64,000 bases of DNA from Glandiceps talaboti (taxonomy: Eukaryota > Hemichordata > Enteropneusta > Spengelidae), in the NCBI RefSeq assembly GCF_964340395.1, contig NC_135549.1, forward strand, positions 6,204,001-6,268,000, given 5' to 3'. The notes below the pieces were generated by a model that saw only the letters and a list, made by a program, of their open reading frames with translations, did no database searches and was not told the DNA's origin. Positions 28,701 through 63,278 of this stretch are shown in pieces. The position numbers and the translations under genes were made by a program. How positions within the stretch are numbered: position 1 is the first letter of the stretch; each line of letters starts with the position of its first letter.

Positions 28701-31700
28701 CTAGTCATGTGATCACAGTCTAGTCATGTGATCAGACTCAGTCTAGTCATATGATCACACTCAGTCTAGTCATGTGATCGGACTCAGTCTAGTCATATGA
28801 TCACACTCACAGTCTGGTCATGTGATCACAGATTCAGTCTAGTTATGTGATCATAGTCTAGTTGTGTGAACACAGGCTCGGTCTAGTCATGATCACACTC
28901 AGCCTAGTCATGTGATTACACAGACTCTAGTCATATGATCACAGACTCGGTCTAGTCATGTGATTGTGAAGATACACATTGTATGACAGTATTGTCATAA
29001 TCTCACATAGCTTAGCTGCTATAGAGGATGTTTTCATATAACACCTATATTGTACATGTACATGTACCAGTACCCCTCCAGGCAATATGAAATGTATTCT
29101 CCTGTTTCTCCCCACCCCCCTGTCCCCCACCCCTGTGATGTTTACATTTCATGAATGTAGGCATTCAACCAGTTTGCTATATATCGGAATATTTCACAAA
29201 GATACTCTTTGTCTGCTTGCAAGAAGTACAGAATGTTCAAGACATCTTACTAAACAATTAAAGCTTTATGAAAGTCACAATATACAGGGTTCAAAATGAA
29301 CACATTCAAAATAAGGAACATTGATGATTGTACTTTAGTTGTCTATAACCCCACATGTATTAAGTACAGATGTCTTGATGTGGTTGATTATTTCATTCCG
29401 TAAAAAATTGTATTGTGTTTCTTCTCAAGTCCATTTTTCACCCAATGAGTGCATATCCTGACAAAGTCCAAAGAAAGCTAAGAGCTAAGACATTTTGAAG
29501 GTTAGCATGGATGATGGTGGACTTTACTGTATACTATCAGGACATGTTGTTTGGATGATTTCACAACAAATGTATATTCTGTATTGTAATATTTTAGACA
29601 CTGAGTAAGTTGAAGACACCATGACATGCACACATTACTGGCATCATGTACAACAAAAAATTATACACTTTGAAGCCAATAAACTGTACACTGTACATGG
29701 ACATTGACAACATGAGACTGAAAACTTAAAAGTTTGTGTCAATTAAACTCTACAGATGTGAACATAAAACTGTAAAATTGTGTAATTCAGTAAGTTTATT
29801 TTGAACCCTGTACATATTAAAGATCATGACAAGACATATGCCGTCACATGCTTCATGCTAAACATCAGCCATGTCAGGCTGACTTCCGTTGAAACTGTTT
29901 TCTCTCCATATCATTTTGCCTTTGTCTGTCATGTAGGGCTGGCGGTGGCAAAGGCGTCATTCAAGTACCTTCTGCAAACAAACACTTCCACCAAGATTAC
30001 CGTGCTCAGATCTTCTATGATTACGGCGATTTCTTGTCCTCTTTGAATGGTTGTTATGGTAACTGAAATTTTTATTTTGTTCTAAATCTTCATACAGACT
30101 CCTCCCAGTATTGTCAGACTAATCAACAGTGTAGCCTATCTTTCATTTCAATCACATTCTCACTGTCTCACCACATCACGTTAGTAATATGAATTGCCAT
30201 ACCTGTCAATAACCATTAATTTCTCTTGCACTACTCTGCACTTCAGGTAACCTTTGACCCTACAGTCCTTCTATTTCTACCCAATTACAGCTTTGCAGCT
30301 GAGAAGAAATTTACTTGAGTATCCGGGGATGGATGATACAATTCAAATTTATAACTTACATGTAGAAAACAGCTGGCTGTCACTAGTTCACCAGAAAAAT
30401 GTCAATGTCACTAGTTTATACACTAAGAAAGTGTGTCATATGAGGCTTATAATATTGCCCTATAACTTGCTGCCATTTGTTTACCAAAAAGAGGTTGCTG
30501 CAGAAAATCAACATGCCATCACTTAATGTGCTCCTTTCCTCTGTCTTCTTGTAGCTGTTGAACTTTGTATTAGGCTGTCCTCTTTTACTTGTCTTCCCTC
30601 TTGTCACTGGATTTTTGTATTTCTTTCTCTTCTTTGTTACTGTACATGTATGTATGTACATGTATGCCATCTTTCTTCCATGTCATTGACAAGGGTAGCA
30701 ACTCTCCTATGATTTCTTTGCAGCATGTTGTAATAATTGCACAACTCTGTCATTAATTTCAATCACAAAATTGACACAAACACACAAAAATCAGAAAGAT
30801 GGCTACACTATTGATGACTAAAGTCTCCTCTAGTGTCAGAGAGAAACCAAGTATACGAACTGCCATACTGACATAGATCTGGCTTTATTTCATCTCAATT
30901 TTGAGGGTTGGTGGAGGAACTGCAGGTATGTATGACCCCTTCAACTGGGTGAATGCGACTACAACAGAGACTCTCATTTTGAAGTAAACACTAATTGCGA
31001 TCGTCTTTGCGAATGTTTTTGAGACTCTCAGAGGGGTTGTAAACAGTGAATGAGAGTGAATCTGAGACCGTATTTGGGACTCTCAACGTGCCCATAAACA
31101 GTAAATGCGAATCAATCTGAGACCATCCAGCTACTACGTACCGTATGACTTTATCATTCACATCTAACTGTATAAAGATCACAGTGAGTAACTGTTGAAA
31201 TTTCGCCATGATGAATATCTACGCAACAATATACACATACATGCGTCGGCAATCATGGTCACAAATCATGGAGTTATAACTTGAAGTAAAGTCAAATGAG
31301 CCACCCAGCCTCATGGCGAGTGTGTTCACAGAGTCATTTTGAATTTATATGAATATAGACGAAGTGACGAGTGGCGTACGGTGTCACGTGGCATGGATGG
31401 GTGTGGTAACGTATGATCTTCCGACGCACGGTCGATGATCGTAATTTGATACCTACGATCTAGTATTGGTAGTAATATGAATATTCCAACTTTATAATCT
31501 CAACTATACGTCTTTATGTGAAAGGTCTGCATTGTATAATGTGGCCATTAGTGGATTCTCGTGTATTATGTCGGACATTTCCTACATCAACATTAATTAC
31601 GAACCCCACATTTTAAAATCCGACAAAAGTAGCGACGCACCGAAAAATTCGAATACTGAATCGGGTACGCCTAGTAGTACGGCGAGAACACGCTGAAATA

Positions 31701-34700
31701 TGGTCCTGCTTTACAGACGGTGTAAATTGGGACTCGATTCTCAGGCAGACACTGTCCCCTTTCTACCTTGACAGAATCGAGTCAGCTCCGTCTGCAAGTG
31801 AAAATATAAACGTGCTCTTGGCGCATAGGGGATGTGTAATGTTAGTTAGATTGTTGTTTTCCTTGTCTAGCTACGGTCTAAATATGAGAACGCTTTGACT
31901 TGAATACGATGGGGGCATTGTATGGAGTACATATTGATACATTTTTAATTATAGCGCCTTACGAAAAAAGCCATCTAAACAAGAATGCAGAATGTTTTGG
32001 AGTAGTACCCCCCCCCCCTTATGTCGCGGTGTGCACGTCTAACCTCGACGTGTCAAATTTACGTTACCTTTACAAGTTTTATTGACAAAGTAATTTTTAG
32101 AAAGTTGATGAAAGCGCTGTCTGCCAGCAGGACTAAACACAATCTGATCTAAATACGACTCGGATTTCACCATCACATACACAAGTCAAATGGCATGATA
32201 ACACGCGTAGCATCCACTTTAAATGTAAAAATATTATCTGTGGGCTTACTATAAGGTATTGAAAAAATCACATAGTCGGTTCAGTTCTGTTTTATTTCAT
32301 CTTCAAATTTGGAATTCAAGTTTGATTTTTGACATATTGGTGGGGATTTCGCTGATTCTCCAACAACGGCGTCGGCAACAACGCACGAGGACAAGTTGTG
32401 AGCCCGTACATCCGGCTCAGCGAGTGCACTATAGTCCCGGGGTGTTGACATCGTCAGCGAGTGCACTATAGTCCCGGGGTGCAATTTTACAGGAAAGATA
32501 TAAACGGTGATTAATTCTAATACGGAGACCAGGATATGTTCAGATTTCTCTGCAAAATTGTTATTGTTACCATGGATGTATTAGTGACATCCATGTTGTT
32601 ACTTAGAAGTTACACTTTGCTAATACAACAAACTGCATCTCACAAAGCCAATGTTAGTAAATATATTATTATGTTTCAAAATAGCCATACAAGTTGACAG
32701 ATACACTCAACTGGGATAGTTCTGGTACACAATATAAGCATATAAAGACGATCTAAGAATATGACTGAAAAATCCTCGGTATAAAGGAGCTCCCTGTAAA
32801 TTTGTCGTCGACCCCTCTCAAGCGCGGAATACATATTGAACTTGAATGATTGACAACCACTACGCTTGTGATTTGCATATGTTACAGTAGAAGATCATAA
32901 ACAATGGATTACGTTTATCGGTTTATTACCGCTGTGTACAAACAAGCAGCAGCCGATCATTGACCAGTTTCACACCCGTTATACCGTCAAAGCCAACCTT
33001 TTTCGCATCGTTTGTATATAAAGATAGACCAATAAATGTTTGACAACGCGGTGCAAATCACCTTTCGTCGCTATCGTTGTACCGCGCTTTGTTTAGAACA
33101 TCAAAGTCTGCCTTCATTTCACACTGTCAATGTGCGGCTATCCGTGGAAATTGAAGCTGGCCTTTCTTACTATGATTATGAAATGGAATGAATGTAAACA
33201 ACTTTAAATATACACGTCTTTGATTAAAATTGAAAACGTAGCGATATTTTTCCTTATGTTGTAAATGACATCTTGAATTTGACCATGTGAGATCGAGAAT
33301 TGTTGATACGCAAATACGTCACTCTAATAGATGGAACGACGTCTACTGTCCTTGTTTCACGTTTGTTTAATTTAAATCTTGTCAAATCGGGGTTATACTT
33401 CTATGATTCTAGTAATTTCGGATGAGCATGGTGACTAAAATACTAGTAAAAGTGACTGTGGGATGAGTACGTCAGTTTGTCGTACGTTGCGTCCAAAAAC
33501 AGTCAATGACCTTCTTTGTCGGTTACATGTAATGGGTTTACAAAAACGCCGCCCCGCTAATTGTCGAACAACAGGTTTCTAATTTGCTTGTGTCTTTGTT
33601 ATCACGGTGTGTTGTCCGTGTAACACCATACCGCTCGTGCGACTACATTGAATGAAGTGCACAATAGAAGGTGTCAATTTGATTTTTTGCCCTGACAAAA
33701 TTTGCTTCTCAAGATACCGCTTTGTAACTATATGTGTGAAATTGAAATAAATATGAATGGCTTAAGCTTTTCTATAAAATCTGACGAGAATTTTGGATTT
33801 CTCAGTTCAACACGGTACATCCTTCCAGCAACACGTATCAACCACTACCGGTACTGCTAGTATTCTAATGTCATGGCAATTGAACTAAACAAGAGTGAGC
33901 TGCAAAGCTGGCAAGTTATCCAGCGTCAGATTGACATGTTTGTAAAAAAGACAAATTTTGAAGTCGTCGTCCTCTCAACATTTCAAAGCAAATTCTCTAC
34001 ACGAAGAAATCATCTCATCCACGGTACTGATCGCTTACGAGCCACTGTCAAAGAAAACATCTCTACATTAGTATCATCACATCCAGAGTCATCTTCCAGT
34101 AACGGCAACACTACACAAACTATGCAAGCTGGTCTCCTAGATATCAGAGAGTTGCCAAATCGTAAACTGTCAGAAATGCGGTTTCTTGGCCTACGGAAAC
34201 TCGTTCCCCTGTTGGTGAATAATAGTTTACCAGATGACAGGCGTCAGCCTGGGTGGGGAACTGATGACCGTAGGCCGGTGTGGTGGCCGCATGATGTCCC
34301 ATTTGTAAACCCCAGCCGTCCCCCGAAATTAACTGGCAACGAGTCCTGGAAAGAAATGTTGCGACGTGCAGCAATGTGTTGTTACAAGCACTATGGTGCA
34401 GTGCATTTAACTGGTGAGTTCAACTTCTTATCCACTTCCCTTTTAATTTGTAATTTTAACTTGGACAACAATACTGGCTATAGTCTAAGGAATATGTAGA
34501 TCCATCTCGATGAAATTCACAATCTTCCGAAAACTTTTAAACCCCTTTATACTAGCACTTTACCAAATGTCAATGTTTATCAAGATCTATGAATGACTAT
34601 GCAATCTAACATGCCAGTGTAATTGTTTTTAAAGGATTGGATCCACAGATTGCTCAGTTAAAATACTATATATAGAGTACACTTTATATAGTATTTACTT

Positions 34701-34712
34701 GTATATATATTC

Positions 34713-34743
<31 letters not shown>

Positions 34744-37700
34744 TGTATGTATGTATGTATGTATGTATGTGTGTGTGTGTATCTGAAAATGTATACAGAA
34801 AAACTTGTCTAAACCAAACACCTATGGGACTGAAAAAGTTGTTCGGTTTAGAGAGGTGTTTGGTTTATAGAGGTTTTATTTTAATTGTGTCTATTTGCGA
34901 GTGACTGAGATCCATGTTTAGAATAGACAGTGTTCCAGTTTAGATGGTTCAGCTTAATATAAGCACAGTACAAAGCATGGGGTTTGTATGGTAGGCTCAG
35001 TATTGCCAACAAATTCAAACAAAATTACTGTTAGGTCCATTCTTTTATTCTTACAGTGTAGGTTTGTAACCCAGCCACCAGTCAATTGTGGTCACCCTGG
35101 AATGCCTGTTTTTACCATGATTTTTTTTTAAATTCCATCTAATTTTGTCACTTTTAAAATTTTTTAAAAAATCACCTGTTATCTTCTCTTCTATTACTAA
35201 TTTCAATTTACTAATGTTACTTTTCCTTTTAGGTGATGTCGAAGAATTGTCACAATTAGAAGACCTAGGTGAGTTGTTATTAGCAATCACACCAATACTT
35301 GGCATGTTTACTGCATTGCTGAGATACATTGTTAGATGGTAGTGCCTTCCAGCCCTTCTCAAAGGGTTAGTATATACAACCTGGTAACAATATATCTCAA
35401 CAGTGGAATAAACATGCTAACAAATATTAAATTTGAGTAGCTTTACTGCTGATTCCTTTATTTATGCTGGATAATTGTCATTCTTGTCAATTTTTTTTAC
35501 CACCGCATATTGCCACATGTCTGTTCATTCACTTATTCTTGTACTTTATATACTTTGCAGGCAATGTTACCAGTAACACTCCATCACAAGATCCACCAGT
35601 TATCCCAGCTCCCAATCCACCGACCCAACTTGTAAATGCCACTAATATAGGTGAGTAATGTCTCTATCAACACATCAATTGAGCCAACACAAACTAATTT
35701 ATAATATCAATATTTTATTAACAATACCAAGTTCTAATTGGATCAAGGAAAACAGCTCCATTTGTCAGTTTCAATAGAAAAATATACACAATCGGTGATT
35801 CATCTAATACAGATCTGAAATCAGTTGCCTCTTTTCTTTCAACAGATATAGATGACTTGCTACTAGGTATCGGGAATGGTACATACACTATCACAGGCAA
35901 TGATACAGGTAAGTTAACACTATTCAAAATAATTCAGTAAAAATGTATACTAAGTTTGCAAGTATTGCACGATTGGATACAAACTAATCAAAGTGAGCCA
36001 TACATTGTACAATTATGTCATTGTTCATTTATTGTGTCAAAATATTTTGCCTGTATACCTAAAACTTCTTTTGTCATTGCTTTGTTTTAGATGACTTAGA
36101 ACGCCCACTAGATGACTGTCCCAGTATATGTCAGCCCTTTCCTACAATTAATGAAGATGATCTTGGTAAGTATAAAGATTGTTCCTTATTGCACACTCAA
36201 ATTAATAGCCCCATTTGTTTGAAAAGTATATTGTCAACATTGTAGAAGTCCACTGTCTCATTTTGAAACATTTCTTACATTTTTGGTATTGTACATACAA
36301 AAGTACTTGTATACAGTCAACATTGTAGAAGTCCACTCTCGTTTTTTAAACATTTTCCTACATTTTTGGTATTGGTAATATCCAGACCCATCATAATCAA
36401 TTCATATAAATGGCAAAAATATATCATGTGACAATAGCAATTTCTTTTCAAATTTACAGTAACACTAACTCAAACCAGCAGTACACCAAATGTTTCCGAA
36501 ATTGAGCCGGCATCACTCTCCATGTCAGTGATTGCAGTAAGCAATGAACAGAGGACAAGGAAGAATACAAGAGCACAGAACAAACCAGATGAAAATGGTA
36601 GGTTTACATTTCACATATCAAAATTAGTACAGTTGTAAGCTTGGCCTGATATTGAATAACTTGTAGTGAAACATTAATCTGATGAAGTATAAAGATTTGG
36701 ATAATCACTGAATATTGTCACATAATACTCAAATATCTATACACAGTTATTACGGTACTATTTGTATTCTATGAATAATTAATTGTTGAAACCATTTTTC
36801 AGTTTAAAATAATGTTAATTTAACATTGTTTTACAGAACCAAGACGATCCAAGCGACCAAGGAAGAACAACCCAAGATTTTCATCATAATTCATGATAAT
36901 GATATGTATTTTGTTTCATTTCTGACACTTTTCATATGTACATTAAGTTAATAAATAATTTTACACTTTTGATAATAAGGTCTGTAATGGTCATTTCTCT
37001 AAAATCCTGTCCTAGTTAAACAGTATGTGGTTTCTCACACCTAGAAGATGGAAATTTAACATGACACATGAAACAAACTGCTTACAGTCTCAAATCTACA
37101 TAACACAATTTCCACTTTCCCTGTTCATTACTGCTAAAAATAATGATACATGAAACATAAAATTATCTGGCAGCATGTACGAAACTTGAGCTTTAATTCT
37201 TGCTAAGTCAGCATTGCTTTGTTCACAGACTTGAGAGTTTAACTTATTTATGTCAGCATTATATTTGTACACGTTCATGTTGTAACCAGAAGAACACCTA
37301 CAACAAAAGACAGGAAAGTCATTAGCAGTGGATACAGTAGTTGAGTTGTGGGTTTCTCGATGAAAAATAATAATATTGAGTGCTCTTACATAAGCAACAC
37401 ATTGAGTAAAACAGGTTTAGTTATATTAAAATATGAACATCTATACACCATTCAAATGTTTTTAAGTCTTTCTTAGCATGAAATTAGTAACATATGCTAC
37501 ATGCAATCCAGCTATTATAGTGTCAAACAAAACACCTAGGATATGATTTACCCTGTATGATTCTTCCAGTGAAGTCGGTCAACAAGAAACAGTGTGTTTT
37601 TGAAAAACTCGGGCTCCCTGCAAGAAACCAAAGAAATTGAAATGTTACCATATGCAATCTGTAAGGAGACGAATCACTTTGTCCCGATTTCAACTTCACC

Positions 37701-40700
37701 CATTCAACTTGTCCCAATTTCAACTCTCTGATTGTTCAATGTTTGCATCTTATATATTTACATCAGCCAAGAATTGTGGTTCATTTCCTAGAAATCTTCT
37801 GATGCAAGTAGGTTTTCTATAGCAACTATAACGGGTTGTAAATTTTTGCTCATTCCATTTAGTGTACATTGGATATGCAACAGCTTAGTTTAATCTCAAT
37901 TCACTCTTGTATGCATCATCAGAGCTAAGTAAACCACTGTATAAGATATTAAATAATTTGGAATTGACTCAAATGGATATTATTATGTGTATCATATTTA
38001 ATATATATTAATAATAAATATATTCAGAAGCTATAAAGGAACCGCCTTAATTTTGAAACAAATTGGTCATTTAACTGACAAAGCCCACTAGAGGATATAT
38101 TGGCCATCACCAAAAAAAAAAATTGAAATGCCAAAAATATGGGTAGGTCGGGCCCATTGAACAGATTTTTTTATTTTTTCTGGCCTAACAAAATATTAGA
38201 CAAAATTACATCCAGATACATGGGAGAGAATTTCAAAGTTTACATTAATTTTTGACTCACCGGTTTAAGGAATACTGATGCAGCTTACAACAATTGTCAT
38301 ATATTATAATCTGTGGCGCGGTTGGGAATCTTGTCATGATGATCGAAAATGGAACTGCTGGGGATTCCACTTGTTTCATCAGTTGAAATCCATAGCAGAC
38401 TTTATGGGGACAGCAGACTGTGAAGATTCCTGGGGACAATGTGGGATGGCCGCCATGAAATTTACGACAACCACTTTCAACTTGACTTGTTTTGTCCTGT
38501 TTGTACCTGCCTTTGCTGTAAAGGAAAAAAAAGATGACACAAATAAGTATTTTATCCTTAGTTGCAAGTGTATGTGATACTGTAATCACATCAAAGCCTA
38601 CATGTTATGTGTGATTTTAATGTAACTTCAACAATGTCTGTCACTGTTTTAGCAAGTGAACAGACAAAGTTGGAAACCAATTCTAGTAATCTAACAATAT
38701 CTATGTAAACATTAATTGTTATTGTTATTTAATATTTTGACTAATCAGCTGTAATAGGAAATAAATCATGAAAACTTACCCTCTAATATGTGGAAGCGAT
38801 GGGAAAAAGGACAGGCTATCATTGGAAGACACTGATGGATATTGTCTGTTGTTATCTTGTGACACATAACATTGCTTTGCTCTGATCAGGATATCGAACA
38901 ACAGTTGTCGTGCTTGGATTGGTACTTGCTGACTTCTAGATGCTATTGCAACCAAGAACTTGAAGATGAGTGGTGCATCATGCTGTAGGCTCTTTAGTTT
39001 TGCAGAATTACTAACATTGAATATATTGAGACCTCGAATTACTTCCTTAATGATATTTCTAGCAATTGAATTTGAGGGTATCTGTATCAAGGAACAAACT
39101 GGCGAATTCTTTGCAATATCAGAAAAAAATGATGAAAACTGTTGTGGTGCTTTGAGAAGTGTTCCATTTGTTGAGATCAGCAACAGTACACTGACTAGAG
39201 ACTGCAAATGTTCATACTGTTTCAGTAAGTGGATAAGGTGGGTAAAGTCTTCTGAAGATAAGGGAACAGTAGAAGTTTGATCTGCAAACTTTAAAAGTAG
39301 TTTTCTGGCCTTGGCATGTGGTATGTAGACTCTGTCTTCATGTTTACTTCCGACCATAGCAGGATATTCATCAGTGGCAGTTGAATCTTCTTCAGAGAGA
39401 AACTGTTTAAGGAGAACCTTGTTAACTCCAAGGCTAGTACCATCACAAATAATGACAGGTGGTGTTTCCCCACATTTGACACAGGTGAAGGAATCTGTGT
39501 AGTTTATACTGAGAAGCCGACTGTATCCATTCCATGCTATTCGTAGCTTGTGTAAAGGAAGAGGTACAGTTGTGGAATAAGTGGCGTGTAATTTCACATA
39601 TGCCCTGTAAAAAGACATGAAACAAAAGTATTACAAATCATGCATATCCACAATAAAAACATAATGACTTTTAAAGAGTATTTTAATTGGTAGAATGTTA
39701 CCCTTATCATAAAATTAATAGCAAGAGTGCAATTTCCAATATTTTCTTGGTATTGGCGTGGTCTGTGTTCTATATTTAGAATTGATCACATACAGTATAA
39801 CAGGTTAAGTTTGTAAACCCTATGCTGACGAATGTTGTATCTAGCTAGCTACAGTGTAACAATGGATACATCCTGTGGAATAGTTCAGAAAAATTATGGC
39901 GAAATCTGTCCCCCAAAATGATACCAATAATCACTCTGGTTCATGGATTAAATAGAAATCAAAGCTCCATACCTGTGAAATGTAGCAAGTGGGTTTCTTC
40001 CCTCACACATGAGATGCAGGTAAGACTGGAGGAGGCTGTGATGGATGATGTCTTTGTTGTTTAAATTAAACAGCAGATCATCTCTACCATCATAATACAG
40101 TTTACAAGCACAGGTACCAACACTTGGTCTATAGAACACTGAAAGACAAAATAACATAGTACGATTAACACCTTACAGGGTATACAAGTTTGCAAATTTG
40201 AATTGGCCACATCAGTAGAAAATGAACAGATACTGAAATGTAAACTTCCATATAAATATCACTGGGACACAGACAAATTTCTGATGAGAATTGTGGCTAC
40301 GAGAGTCACAATATTACAAATAAAAATTGTAATAATGTAAATAGCAGAACAATTTGAACCCACATTATAGAATTGAAAACAAGAGTGAAATTTTCATTAT
40401 TTAAAGTTTCTGAATGCAAACTGTCTATAATTACAAACTGTAATATCATGGTAGTTTTTATTTAAAGCTCACCTTTAATGTTTTGACTTCCAATATTTCC
40501 CTTGGTTGTCTTCAATGAAAAACTTTCAAAATATATAGTAGCTTCCCCTACACACCATTTATGCTCTACTGCATCTCCATCATCCCATTTGTTACCATGG
40601 CAACACAATGCATAGGGTCCATCATCTGCTGGCATTTCAGGAATGAGTACAGGTGGTATAGAAATCTGTGAACAAATTAATAAAATATTACTAAGTCAAA

Positions 40701-43700
40701 ATTCACTGAGCACTACCATAATAGGTATTGTTATACTAACAAGTCAAACATTTAGTCAGGCCATGTCTATTAACAAAATATAATAAACAACACAAAATGA
40801 ACTCACCTCACCACTCCTTAGCTGATCAAAATTCTCCTTTGCTTCATCTGGAAGACTGTATGGAATTGGTTTATAGGACATGCATGAAAATGTACTGGTA
40901 CTTGAAGCAGCAGACTCATCATCTTCTGGAATGGTTCTGCTGTGCTGCTGGGACCAGGTCCTGTACACTTCCACATGGTCACATGATGACCTACCAAATC
41001 TACAGCTTGTGCAGCAGAGTTGTCTTGCTCTGTTTCTGTGTACTACAGACAAAACATGAACATCTCTGTTGATGGTAACTGCAGCGAGGAAAGGATCTTC
41101 CGTAAGCTGATCCACAACAATTTGAGATTCATCTAATGGTTGTTGAGTAACAACTGGATGTGGTGTATAAATGGCATTGACTGCTTTGGCATGGAGGCAA
41201 TAGTTTGACTCTTCATCCTTGATAAATCTACGAAAGTTACAGTCACTACTGCTGGATGGACGAGTGGCCTGTAGTCTCTCCTCATTTTGCATACCCATCT
41301 TGCATGAACATGTCAAAAGACGAGTCTGCAACGTGTTTTCAGCATTGTGAAATAGCAAAGTCCTTTTTACTATGCAATACTGAGACTTGAGTTTAGCTGA
41401 AGAAGGGTCACAGTCTGCAACAACATAGACATCACCAGATGAGAGCTCCCATGTCATCTTGTGTCTTTTCAGCTGATATAAGTATGCAGAATCAATATCG
41501 ACATCCATTGAACCAGAACTTGATGATGTGCTAGAAGAGAATAAATGATTTAAGACCATAATAAGTTATAATGTTATCTTACAATTTCTATCCACAAGTT
41601 ACCAGTTTGTCCAGTATTCCGCGAAGCATTTAGGCACCAATATTTGATTGACATCTACGGTAATGATGACTCAGATTTTCACAAAACCCCTTTGGTCTCT
41701 ACTTACGATTTTTCAGACAGATTGGTGTGCATTTGAAAAAGTTGAACATGAGCTGAGCGAAGTTTAGTTGTCATAAAATAATGTTGCAAAGTTTATTCAA
41801 GTTTTTCTGACATGAGCACAGTAGTACTGACTGTGGTGAGTGTCCTTGGAACACATATCGCTGACCTGTTGATAGCATTTCCATGAAAGCCACTACCCAA
41901 TTTTTGATAATCTGTCTTACAATGGATAGCACTAGTGCATATATGCCAAAAGTAAGGAATTTTGTAGGGAAAAAAAATTCTTTACATAAATTTTGCCAAA
42001 TAATGCATAATATGGTGATTTAGGTTACCATGGCAACAGATGTTCCTAAAATGATAACTATTTTTGAACTCAACATAACAAACTACCCAACATAGGGTGG
42101 TCAATATGCAAATAAACTATGTTATAATTAAATTTATCAAGTTATTTTCCAGATATGTAATGTTTAACCAAAACAACATTTTTAGTCTACTGTTTCAATG
42201 GAAACAGCTGTCCTATTTTAGTTAATTTGTGTTACAACAGATAGCCCCCATCTCATACATGTCAAAAACAGGGAAACATTTTCATTTTTCCATGTTTTAT
42301 GTCAAATTTTGGAAAAATCATCCACATATTATGGTGATTTTGGTTACCATAGAAACAGATGTTAGTAATATGACCCTCTTTTGGAACTCAGCATAAAAGA
42401 GTATCTTAGGTAGGAGGTTAATATTCAGATAAAGTTGATTATTATCAAACTTATTATTAGAAAATTTATTTAAACACACTCTAAATTCCAGTGAAATCTT
42501 CAAATGTCTATCCTTGTTTATTAATTATCTAATTATTCAAAGACATAATTATAGGCTCTAAGATACAAGATTGTACGTTCACTAGGTTAACTTCTTCATA
42601 TGCAATTGCACAGTAATATTGTAGATAAGTTGTCCTCGTCATGAGTTGGTACAAACAACTTTTACACATGTTACAAGGAGAGCTTCGGTATACTCCTGAA
42701 ATGGGACGTGGTGTGTGCCTATGCACTTCAACAAGTGTGTGTTCTCTGATGATGGACCATGGATCATATGAATTACTGAGAACAACTCGTACTACAACTG
42801 TTGAGCACGGAACAGAGCGAAAACTCAAAAAATTCAAAATGTCAATTCGGATAGTGGAACAGTGTAGTGACACTGATAGCTGTTCTCAAGTCTACGAATG
42901 ACGGTAGGCTACCAAAGTGTCATGATTGAGTTCCAAGCGCGTATCCGTCAAGACGTGAGCTACGTGAAGTCAAATCACGGTAAAGCCTACAATATAACCC
43001 TAAAACCACATTACAAAACAGCATTTATAAACTTATCTCAAGGAACTTCGTACCGTCCTTGTACAAGTTGTAGCATTTTCAAGAAAAGTATTCACAGATG
43101 GCGTGGCATCGGCGGCCATTTTGAATCGTCCCGTACGGATATACGCACACACTACTCTCTCAAACTTTCATCAATAGTAGTAGGATGTTGTTCAGAAATA
43201 AAACATGCATTCATGCCATAGTGTTCAGATTCGAAGTCGAACACTTACCATTGCCACGCAATACTATGTATAACAATATGGCCCGTATAAACGATCGTGC
43301 ACATCGGTGTGTTGACTTGTGTTCGGGCCAAACCAACGCATATGGGATATCTCGGGCAGGAAACGAAGGATGAACCCCGTTCAAATATTCACATGGTGAA
43401 CTTTGTTTTAAACATTGAAATACACTTACCATTTTATTCTCTTTGTATCTCCACGATTGGTATTTTCAACTTTTCGCTTTCGGCTCGTTCTTAGAATTTC
43501 GTGTGCTGACAATTCCGCTATAAGTCGCTTCTTTCTGTACTCCATGACGTGACGTGACGTTCACAACTTTGACACGAGATGCTGTTATTTACGCGAGTGA
43601 CAGTTTTTATAGTCCCACTAGCACTCTCAGATTGATTCGCATTTACTGTTTATGGGCACGTTGAGAGTCCCAAATACGGTCTCAGATTCACTCTCATTCA

Positions 43701-46285
43701 CTGTTTACAACCCCTCTGAGAGTCTCAAAAACATTCGCAAAGACGATCGCAATTAGTGTTTACTTCAAAATGAGAGTCTCTGTTGTAGTCGCATTCACCC
43801 AGTTGAAGGGGTCATACATACCTCGGAACTGGCATAGTTGCTGAACCTATCGCAAAGAAACACATTCTTCCAGACTTCCGAGCCGATATATTTTATGACT
43901 ATGGAGATTTTGTGACTTCACTTAATGGGTGTTATGGTAGGCAAACCCACTGGATGACAATTGATTTGTGCAATTACAAGTTAAGAAAGCGAAGAAAAAA
44001 AAAGATAGATTGTGTTGCTTTTTGTGTTACTTTTATTTGATACATCACTTTAACAGTGACCCTTGCATGTTTGAAGTTATATTCATTTACAGAATGTATC
44101 CCTATTCCTTGTTTTTTTGTATCAACTGCACCGTATCTTTAAATTGATTACTAATGATAATTTACTAACACCATGTTTCATATTTTACAAAGTACTAACT
44201 TCTTTCTTAGTCTGTTCTGTTTTTGACTTGTTATTTTCAAATACTGAGACTAATAGTTTTGTAAAGTGTAGCCATGGATACATGTATTTGTTGATCTAGC
44301 TGTTTTAATGGAAACGCCATTGGTTAAGTAATAGAATGTGTATGAATGTCTTGTAATCAAATGAACAATAAACTATTTTGTATATGGCATGTTAGAGCAT
44401 ATAAACTGAATGAAATTATGAGGAAAGGAATAACAACACATGACCTGACGAAAAGTTGTAATTTAAAAAAAAAAATAGACATGCTTTAAATGATGTAGTG
44501 ATGAAGTATGAAGCATTAGTATCTTATCATGGGGTCAAAGTTGATGACAGGGGTCAAAGTTGATCCTGATAGATGTTGATTCTGTTCTACTATCTTGTAA
44601 TCACAGTGACAGCTGAAGATGTCGGTGTAAATGTCAATGATTTAGATCATGTCCACATCCGTACAAGATATGCAACATGCATTCCTGAAGAAAAAGGTGG
44701 TTCTGGAAATCCATCAATTACCACAGGAAAAGGTACTGCATTGATAATAATTATCCAACATTGCAGCTATGATTACTTATCTAATAATTTCAATCACATG
44801 ATACGGCAAGGGTTAAAGGGGTATGTTTCAATACTGGGTCATTCCATTAGTGTTATCTTAATAAGGATTTCATTCAACTTTTTATTAATAGGTCTATCAA
44901 ATAACTGTTTTTCACACCTAGTTTTTAATCCTTACCCAAAGTGGATCTTGAAGGAAATTTAAACAAATGAGAAGAAGACAGGACTACCATGTAGGAAATG
45001 TTATCCAACCATTTATATGAAATTGATTGAATTTTAAATTCCAGAACTGATAAGGTCAAACTTAAAACTTTACCATAGTCATTGCCAAATGAGAACAGGG
45101 ACAGTTTGTGTATATTATCTGTTTTGGATGAAAATTGCTCCTGATTATTTATTTGTTATCCTATGCCATTCTCAGTATTGTCTCAAAATGTAAGTTTTAG
45201 ATAGTAAATTGGACTGCAAAATACAATAATTATGGATGGAGCTCTCATAGTCGTGTAGAGACATATAACTTACATATAATTGGGTAATATAAAGTACTGG
45301 CCCTTCACCTACAACTGCGTTGTGCAGTTCAATTATAAATTGGCAGTCAATTACTCAAAATCCCACCCATACCTCCATTGTAGGGTAATATTGGATTGTC
45401 TTGTCCCATTCATCATTCAGGTGTTGTGTGTGCCATGGAGGGAGCCTTAGACTTTTTACATCATGGTACACTGGCTGGCAAGTCAGTAGTCATCCAAGGT
45501 GCAGGTAATGTAGGTAAGTATTGAAGTGGCTGTAACATTCAGGATTTGTAAAAATTCAGAAGATAAGGAAATTCTCCTTCTGTATTTCATATACATGTAT
45601 GTGTATTGTTTATCTAATTATTTAAATTGTATGTCATATAGTTATGGAGTATGAACAAATTGTCAAATTTTATGTTTTGATATTTAAAACACTGCACCTG
45701 AACAAGCACTGTTTTTGTACCATTTAAGATATTATAAATTTGATGGATTATATGTTAAAGTATATGATATTCATCCTTGACAGCTACTGTGATAGTGGAG
45801 GAACTTCTACAGAAAGGTGTGTCTTCAATCTATGTCACTGACTGTCATCAAAATAGAGTTGATGATATGAAGCATTTATTTCATGGCAAGGTATGCACCC
45901 ATTCATCAATTTGTTCACACCATAGACCAGTCGTCTTGGCAATGGATTTAATTGGCGATGGATTTAATTTAACTGCAGATGCACAAAAGCTTTATCCATG
46001 GAAATAAGTCCCGCCAACATATTTCACGAGTTGTCATATTGCTAAATTAACTTAATAATATGAAAGTTGCATCTACAGTTGTTAGTGGGCTAACTGGTAT
46101 TTAATACAAGCCGTGCATCTACTTTCATCCTGCACTGTCCAAATTAAAGTGTGCCTCACACATCCTAAATTGCCATTCCACCAAATATTTCGTCTGCCAA
46201 AATAAATGTTTACAATAGGTGTTTTCCATGTAGACAGACATCACATCATGCCATTTAAATGGGTAATGGTTGGCAGTCTTGGGGA

Positions 46286-54923: not shown

Positions 54924-63278
<8,355 letters not shown>

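Follow-up and report, generated by a model that had tools for sequence, protein, structure and literature searches.

The 64,000-nucleotide stretch of the acorn worm Glandiceps talaboti analysed here (contig NC_135549.1, positions 6,204,001 to 6,268,000; hereafter the window) harbours at 30923..43824 a 12.9-kb element that we consider probably to be a recently inserted, potentially autonomous transposon of the KDZ superfamily, with two convergent genes coding for a transposase and for a protein related to the transcription factor NRF1, the latter aiding at the element's ends. KDZ elements are known for their transposases and, in fungi, for TET/JBP companions. The type of transposon is already known, but a two-gene design that includes an NRF1-like partner is undescribed as far as we searched: no literature joining KDZ and NRF1 was found in the library searched, outside which lie subscription papers, Iyer 2014 among them. 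An earlier note on the window had proposed an apparently intact 12.9-kb KDZ transposon at these positions. Its ends, target duplication, split host exon and open genes confirm a complete transposon, although the note understated the element, as the NRF1 type of the second gene was not named.

The two inverted arms, 30924-31122 on the plus strand and 43625-43823 on the minus strand, are identical throughout their 199 bases. Beyond them, the element begins and ends with a C when read on one strand (30923 and 43824); these two bases are hence not complementary and make up the sole mismatch in the 200-bp ends that had been described as 199/200 identical. The termini are 5' CA and 3' TC. Immediately outside lies a perfect 7-bp duplication, GGAACTG, at 30916-30922 and 43825-43831, in agreement with the 7-bp duplication of the earlier note. 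When the element and one duplication are removed, the joined flanks align without gaps over 127 bases with a paralogous exon at 29935-30061; this is therefore a real insertion that split a host exon. This exon, to which 43832-43950 belongs, comes from a gene of a tandem family. Its peptide may resemble a Glu/Leu/Phe/Val dehydrogenase, although a Pfam search gave no match. Chance cannot account for a 199-bp perfect inverted repeat, a flanking duplication and the sister copies described below. In the NCBI annotation the two genes are ordinary uncharacterized loci, as might be expected of an immobile host gene pair lying inside a palindrome. We give this explanation practically no credence, since the paralogous exon shows the empty site, and copies on other chromosomes have exact ends, each with flanks and a 7-bp duplication of its own.

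The transposase gene (37096..43545, minus strand) has eight exons, at 43545-43430, 41530-40807, 40665-40473, 40138-39973, 39604-38780, 38515-38261, 37617-37552 and 37297-37096, and its start codon lies 80 bp inside the right arm. The spliced reading gives exactly P0001, the 848-residue protein predicted by NCBI as LOC144442507 [Glandiceps talaboti], so that the complete 848-codon transposase of the earlier note stands. Its candidate catalytic residues D454, D748 and E807 are at the positions claimed and, together with D773, are invariant across 13 aligned proteins (the window protein and 12 of 26 found), with identities of 26-48%; the window transposase has the DDE triad on an RNase H-like core. 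Concerning the proposed KDZ affiliation, a profile search gave a mixed outcome. The Pfam KDZ family (PF18758) is matched by 9 of the 13 aligned proteins (best E 2.5e-8), whereas whole P0001 has no match to it at E 0.01, and one of its exons gives E 0.05 (13.7 bits against a cut-off of 26.6). P0001 does match the KDZ-associated CxC4 cysteine cluster at E 1.5e-4, with 22 bits under the curated cut-off of 26.9, and this cluster is matched at E 0.01 by 6 of the 13 proteins. These sub-threshold matches therefore suggest a divergent KDZ member, whose membership is supported through its relatives. The Pfam KDZ profile itself found a single locus in the genome, a more distant one at C6:28626839-28627297.

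The second gene lies on the plus strand, convergent to the transposase, with seven exons between 33873 and 36889 coding for 331 amino acids. Exon 1 (33873..34413) carries the entire predicted dimerisation and DNA-binding region, and exons 2-7 (35233-35268, 35561-35650, 35846-35908, 36091-36165, 36460-36597 and 36837-36889) end in a basic tail. Exon 1 matches Pfam Nrf1_DNA-bind (PF10491) at E 1.6e-11 (44.8 bits, over a cut-off of 23.5) and the human NRF1 chain 8k3d at E 4.2e-10 as a single sequence and 1.7e-22 with a profile built from seven relatives in the G. talaboti genome. For the dimerisation part, the Pfam match starts at profile position 44 and the alignment is plausible, yet both PDB-chain profile matches begin in the DNA-binding part. 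The gene is thus predicted to encode a dimerising, DNA-binding protein of NRF1 type. NCBI's automatic predictions include the same two genes, labelled uncharacterized; however, LOC144439810, which equals our exons 2-7 from its residue 7 onward, lacks the NRF1-like exon 1 and so any hint of a link to NRF1. A direct repeat of 66 bp (83% identical, 83 bp spacing) occupies 36226-36374 in an intron of this gene.

The NRF1-like gene is distinct from the conserved host NRF1. The host gene, at C1:26114033-26117544, is 79% identical to human NRF1 over the NRF1 region, whereas the figure for the window protein is 23-24%. The window protein has a predicted dimerisation region and a DNA-binding region in the same order as in NRF1, P3A2 and EWG, but the domain occupies one exon in the transposon and several in the host gene. 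NRF1 binds DNA as a dimer; its R206 reads the T and the first G of TGCGC, and N242 and R244 read the rest (PMC10810270). In an alignment of nine transposon proteins, all retain N242, eight have R or K at the R206 position, and none retains R244. This incomplete conservation of the base-reading set suggests a related protein with an altered reading head.

The NRF1-like gene is the regular second gene of this KDZ lineage and not a peculiarity of the window. A genome search for the transposase returned 69 exon matches, which fall into 19 loci (53 of 97 candidates scored), and the Pfam NRF1 profile gave 28 matches, four being host NRF1 and 24 transposon-like. An NRF1-like match lies within 10 kb of 13 of the 19 transposase loci, always convergent and 1.3-3.3 kb away. 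A fourteenth pair, at C8:22858985-22863747, has a convergent NRF1-like gene with a broken frame, missed by Pfam and recovered by tblastn (E down to 1.8e-22), which brings the tally to 14 of 19, convergent in 14 of 14. Where at least four exon pieces of the transposase are present, 9 of 10 loci are paired, the tenth (C13:525704) being a copy that ends abruptly. Outside the window element's family, paired transposases are 40-46% identical to the window one over the catalytic exon, and their NRF1-like partners 33-43% identical where aligned. Since the pairing is kept across such diverged transposases, the gene pair is older than these families.

The earlier note would have counted the absence of any second copy as a refutation and proposed a genome search with the 200-bp ends; by that search its reading is not refuted. 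In the 590-Mb assembly, where the window is C1:6204001-6268000, the end has at least 34 matches, revealing one more full-length copy, one internally deleted copy and diverged relatives. Both ends are found at 98% identity or more in three places: the window, C8:24227842-24240630 (12.8 kb) and C16:20889463-20898224 (8.8 kb); the remaining matches are single ends or fragments, 74-92% identical. Over 12,674 aligned bases the C8 copy is 99.6% identical to the window element, with 51 differences, of which 6 fall among 3543 coding bases and 45 among the 9131 others; both its genes are free of stops and frameshifts. The C16 copy has lost 4.0 kb including most of the transposase, and its NRF1-like gene is still open; the first transposase exon is present in all three. 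C22:13547511 and C2:10236150 are remnants of the same family, with an NRF1-like match and no nearby transposase match.

The recent transposition proposed earlier is supported by the 99.6% identical sister copy, the open genes and the exact duplications, but not by the identity of the arms. In each of the three copies the two arms agree at all 199 positions, whereas between copies they have diverged more than the interior: 8 of 398 bases against 43 of 12,276 for the window and the C8 copy (P 0.0002), and 8 of 398 against 46 of 8313 for the window and the C16 copy (P 0.003). The arms have therefore been homogenised within each copy, and their identity is no clock for insertion. Such faster divergence between copies combined with identity within them amounts to concerted evolution of the two ends.

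A second family comprises six copies that are 99.2-99.9% identical around the NRF1-like exon. Its arms (in the C24 and C8:21849661 copies) are about 128 bp long and 93-95% identical, and their last 12 bases agree with those of the window element's family. All seven two-ended copies of the two families have exact 7-bp duplications (GGAACTG, AATATTG and AACCATG in the first; TGTATTG, GGTTAAG, ATTACCC and CAATAAA in the second). In the same comparison (the window and copies on C16, C24, C8, C10 and C7), the two outermost bases, read on one strand, are identical in every copy (C..C in six, G..G in one), which may represent asymmetric termini, inversion between the arms, or a trace of excision chemistry.

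Could the NRF1-like gene be a functionless passenger, a fragment of host NRF1 carried along? The 11 NRF1-like matches that lack a transposase match, several of them with stops, would fit. However, the frames are open in three copies of the window family and in further families, the neighbours are convergent in 14 of 14 cases, and an identity of 23-30% to host and human NRF1 over nearly the full domain is far from that of a recent host fragment. Moreover, the window gene and its C22:13547511 relative differ with a nonsynonymous rate (dN) of 0.054 and a synonymous rate (dS) of 0.276 over 130 codons, a dN/dS of about 0.2 that rests on this one pair, the others being saturated or too close. We therefore already disfavour the passenger explanation as very improbable.

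Accessory DNA-binding proteins are found in other two-gene DNA transposons, such as TnpA of En/Spm and the Myb-like protein of Harbinger. By analogy, the NRF1-like protein would dock as an NRF1-style dimer on TGCG-type sites within the inverted ends, helping to assemble these ends and/or driving the element's promoters, while the transposase would make cuts staggered by 7 bp at an arbitrary target, into which the element is inserted. In the 199-bp arm TGCGA occurs four times, always in the same orientation, and TGCGC is absent; the TGCGA sites are mostly kept in related ends. Combined with the replacement of R244, this fits, as a lead only, a protein that, compared with NRF1, reads TGCG but a different final base, and whose probable role would be to bind TGCG-type sites in the ends. 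A role in expression instead of transposition, through activation of the element's promoters or through relief from host silencing, achieved by mimicry of host NRF1 or competition with it, appears to us possible but less likely. NRF1 is a promoter-binding activator, both genes begin near or inside the ends, and the C16 copy kept its NRF1-like gene open after losing most of its transposase; yet the TGCG sites sit in ends that are needed for transposition, and the arms tested lack TGCGC, the usual NRF1 half-site. The two roles may coexist.

Several observations weigh against a two-gene transposon whose NRF1-like protein acts at the ends. The single-sequence structure model of the NRF1-like exon has a predicted local distance difference test score (pLDDT) of 35, and its fold therefore rests on sequence. 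Some 5-mer occurs four times in 24% of 3000 shuffled arms, the TGCGA motif was picked post hoc, and the arms of the second family hold just one or two TGCG each. Five of the 19 transposase loci have no NRF1-like neighbour, namely the cut C13 copy (none in the 6 kb examined) and four single-exon fragments that were not inspected, and no transposase match lies within 10 kb of 11 NRF1-like matches.

Such lone NRF1-like loci are found at C10:6080591, C4:3563889, C8:2215641, C7:17881168, C23:19296241 and C17:14262028-14312601. Several have long open frames, and they may be solo remnants, partners of unseen transposases, or possibly host genes. Elsewhere in the window, an open reading frame at 61137-61592 faintly resembles an exon of ubiquitin carboxyl-terminal hydrolase (Pfam UCH, E 0.0013, under the cut-off).

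The element shares with the Zisupton/KDZ transposons of animals a KDZ-type DDE transposase (judged through its relatives), long inverted ends and an animal host, but differs from Zisupton, whose duplications are 8 bp (PMC12730594), in its 7-bp duplications and its NRF1-type second gene. According to the same source, fungal Kyakuja elements have 7-bp duplications, and those of Laccaria have CA..TG termini, lack inverted repeats and carry TET/JBP. The window element thus resembles Kyakuja in duplication length and 5' CA, and differs in its 199-bp arms, its 3' TC and its NRF1-like gene in place of TET/JBP.

The second gene of this transposon is related to NRF1/EWG/P3A2. The latter is an essential, almost unchanging transcription factor found across animals, and the transposon and NRF1 may share an evolutionary history. 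We find it tempting, if rather unlikely, that animal NRF1/EWG/P3A2 is a domesticated KDZ accessory protein, whose ancestor would have bound TGCG-type sites at transposon ends before a change at the R244 position fixed TGCGC specificity; alternatively, an early NRF1 would have been captured by the transposon. A regular partner of NRF1 type in an animal KDZ lineage would represent a new two-protein design; it would also connect a mobile element with an animal-wide transcription factor and thereby open the origin of NRF1 to direct tests. With its intact, young and near-identical copies, the acorn worm offers a setting in which a potentially live KDZ element can be studied together with its partner protein.
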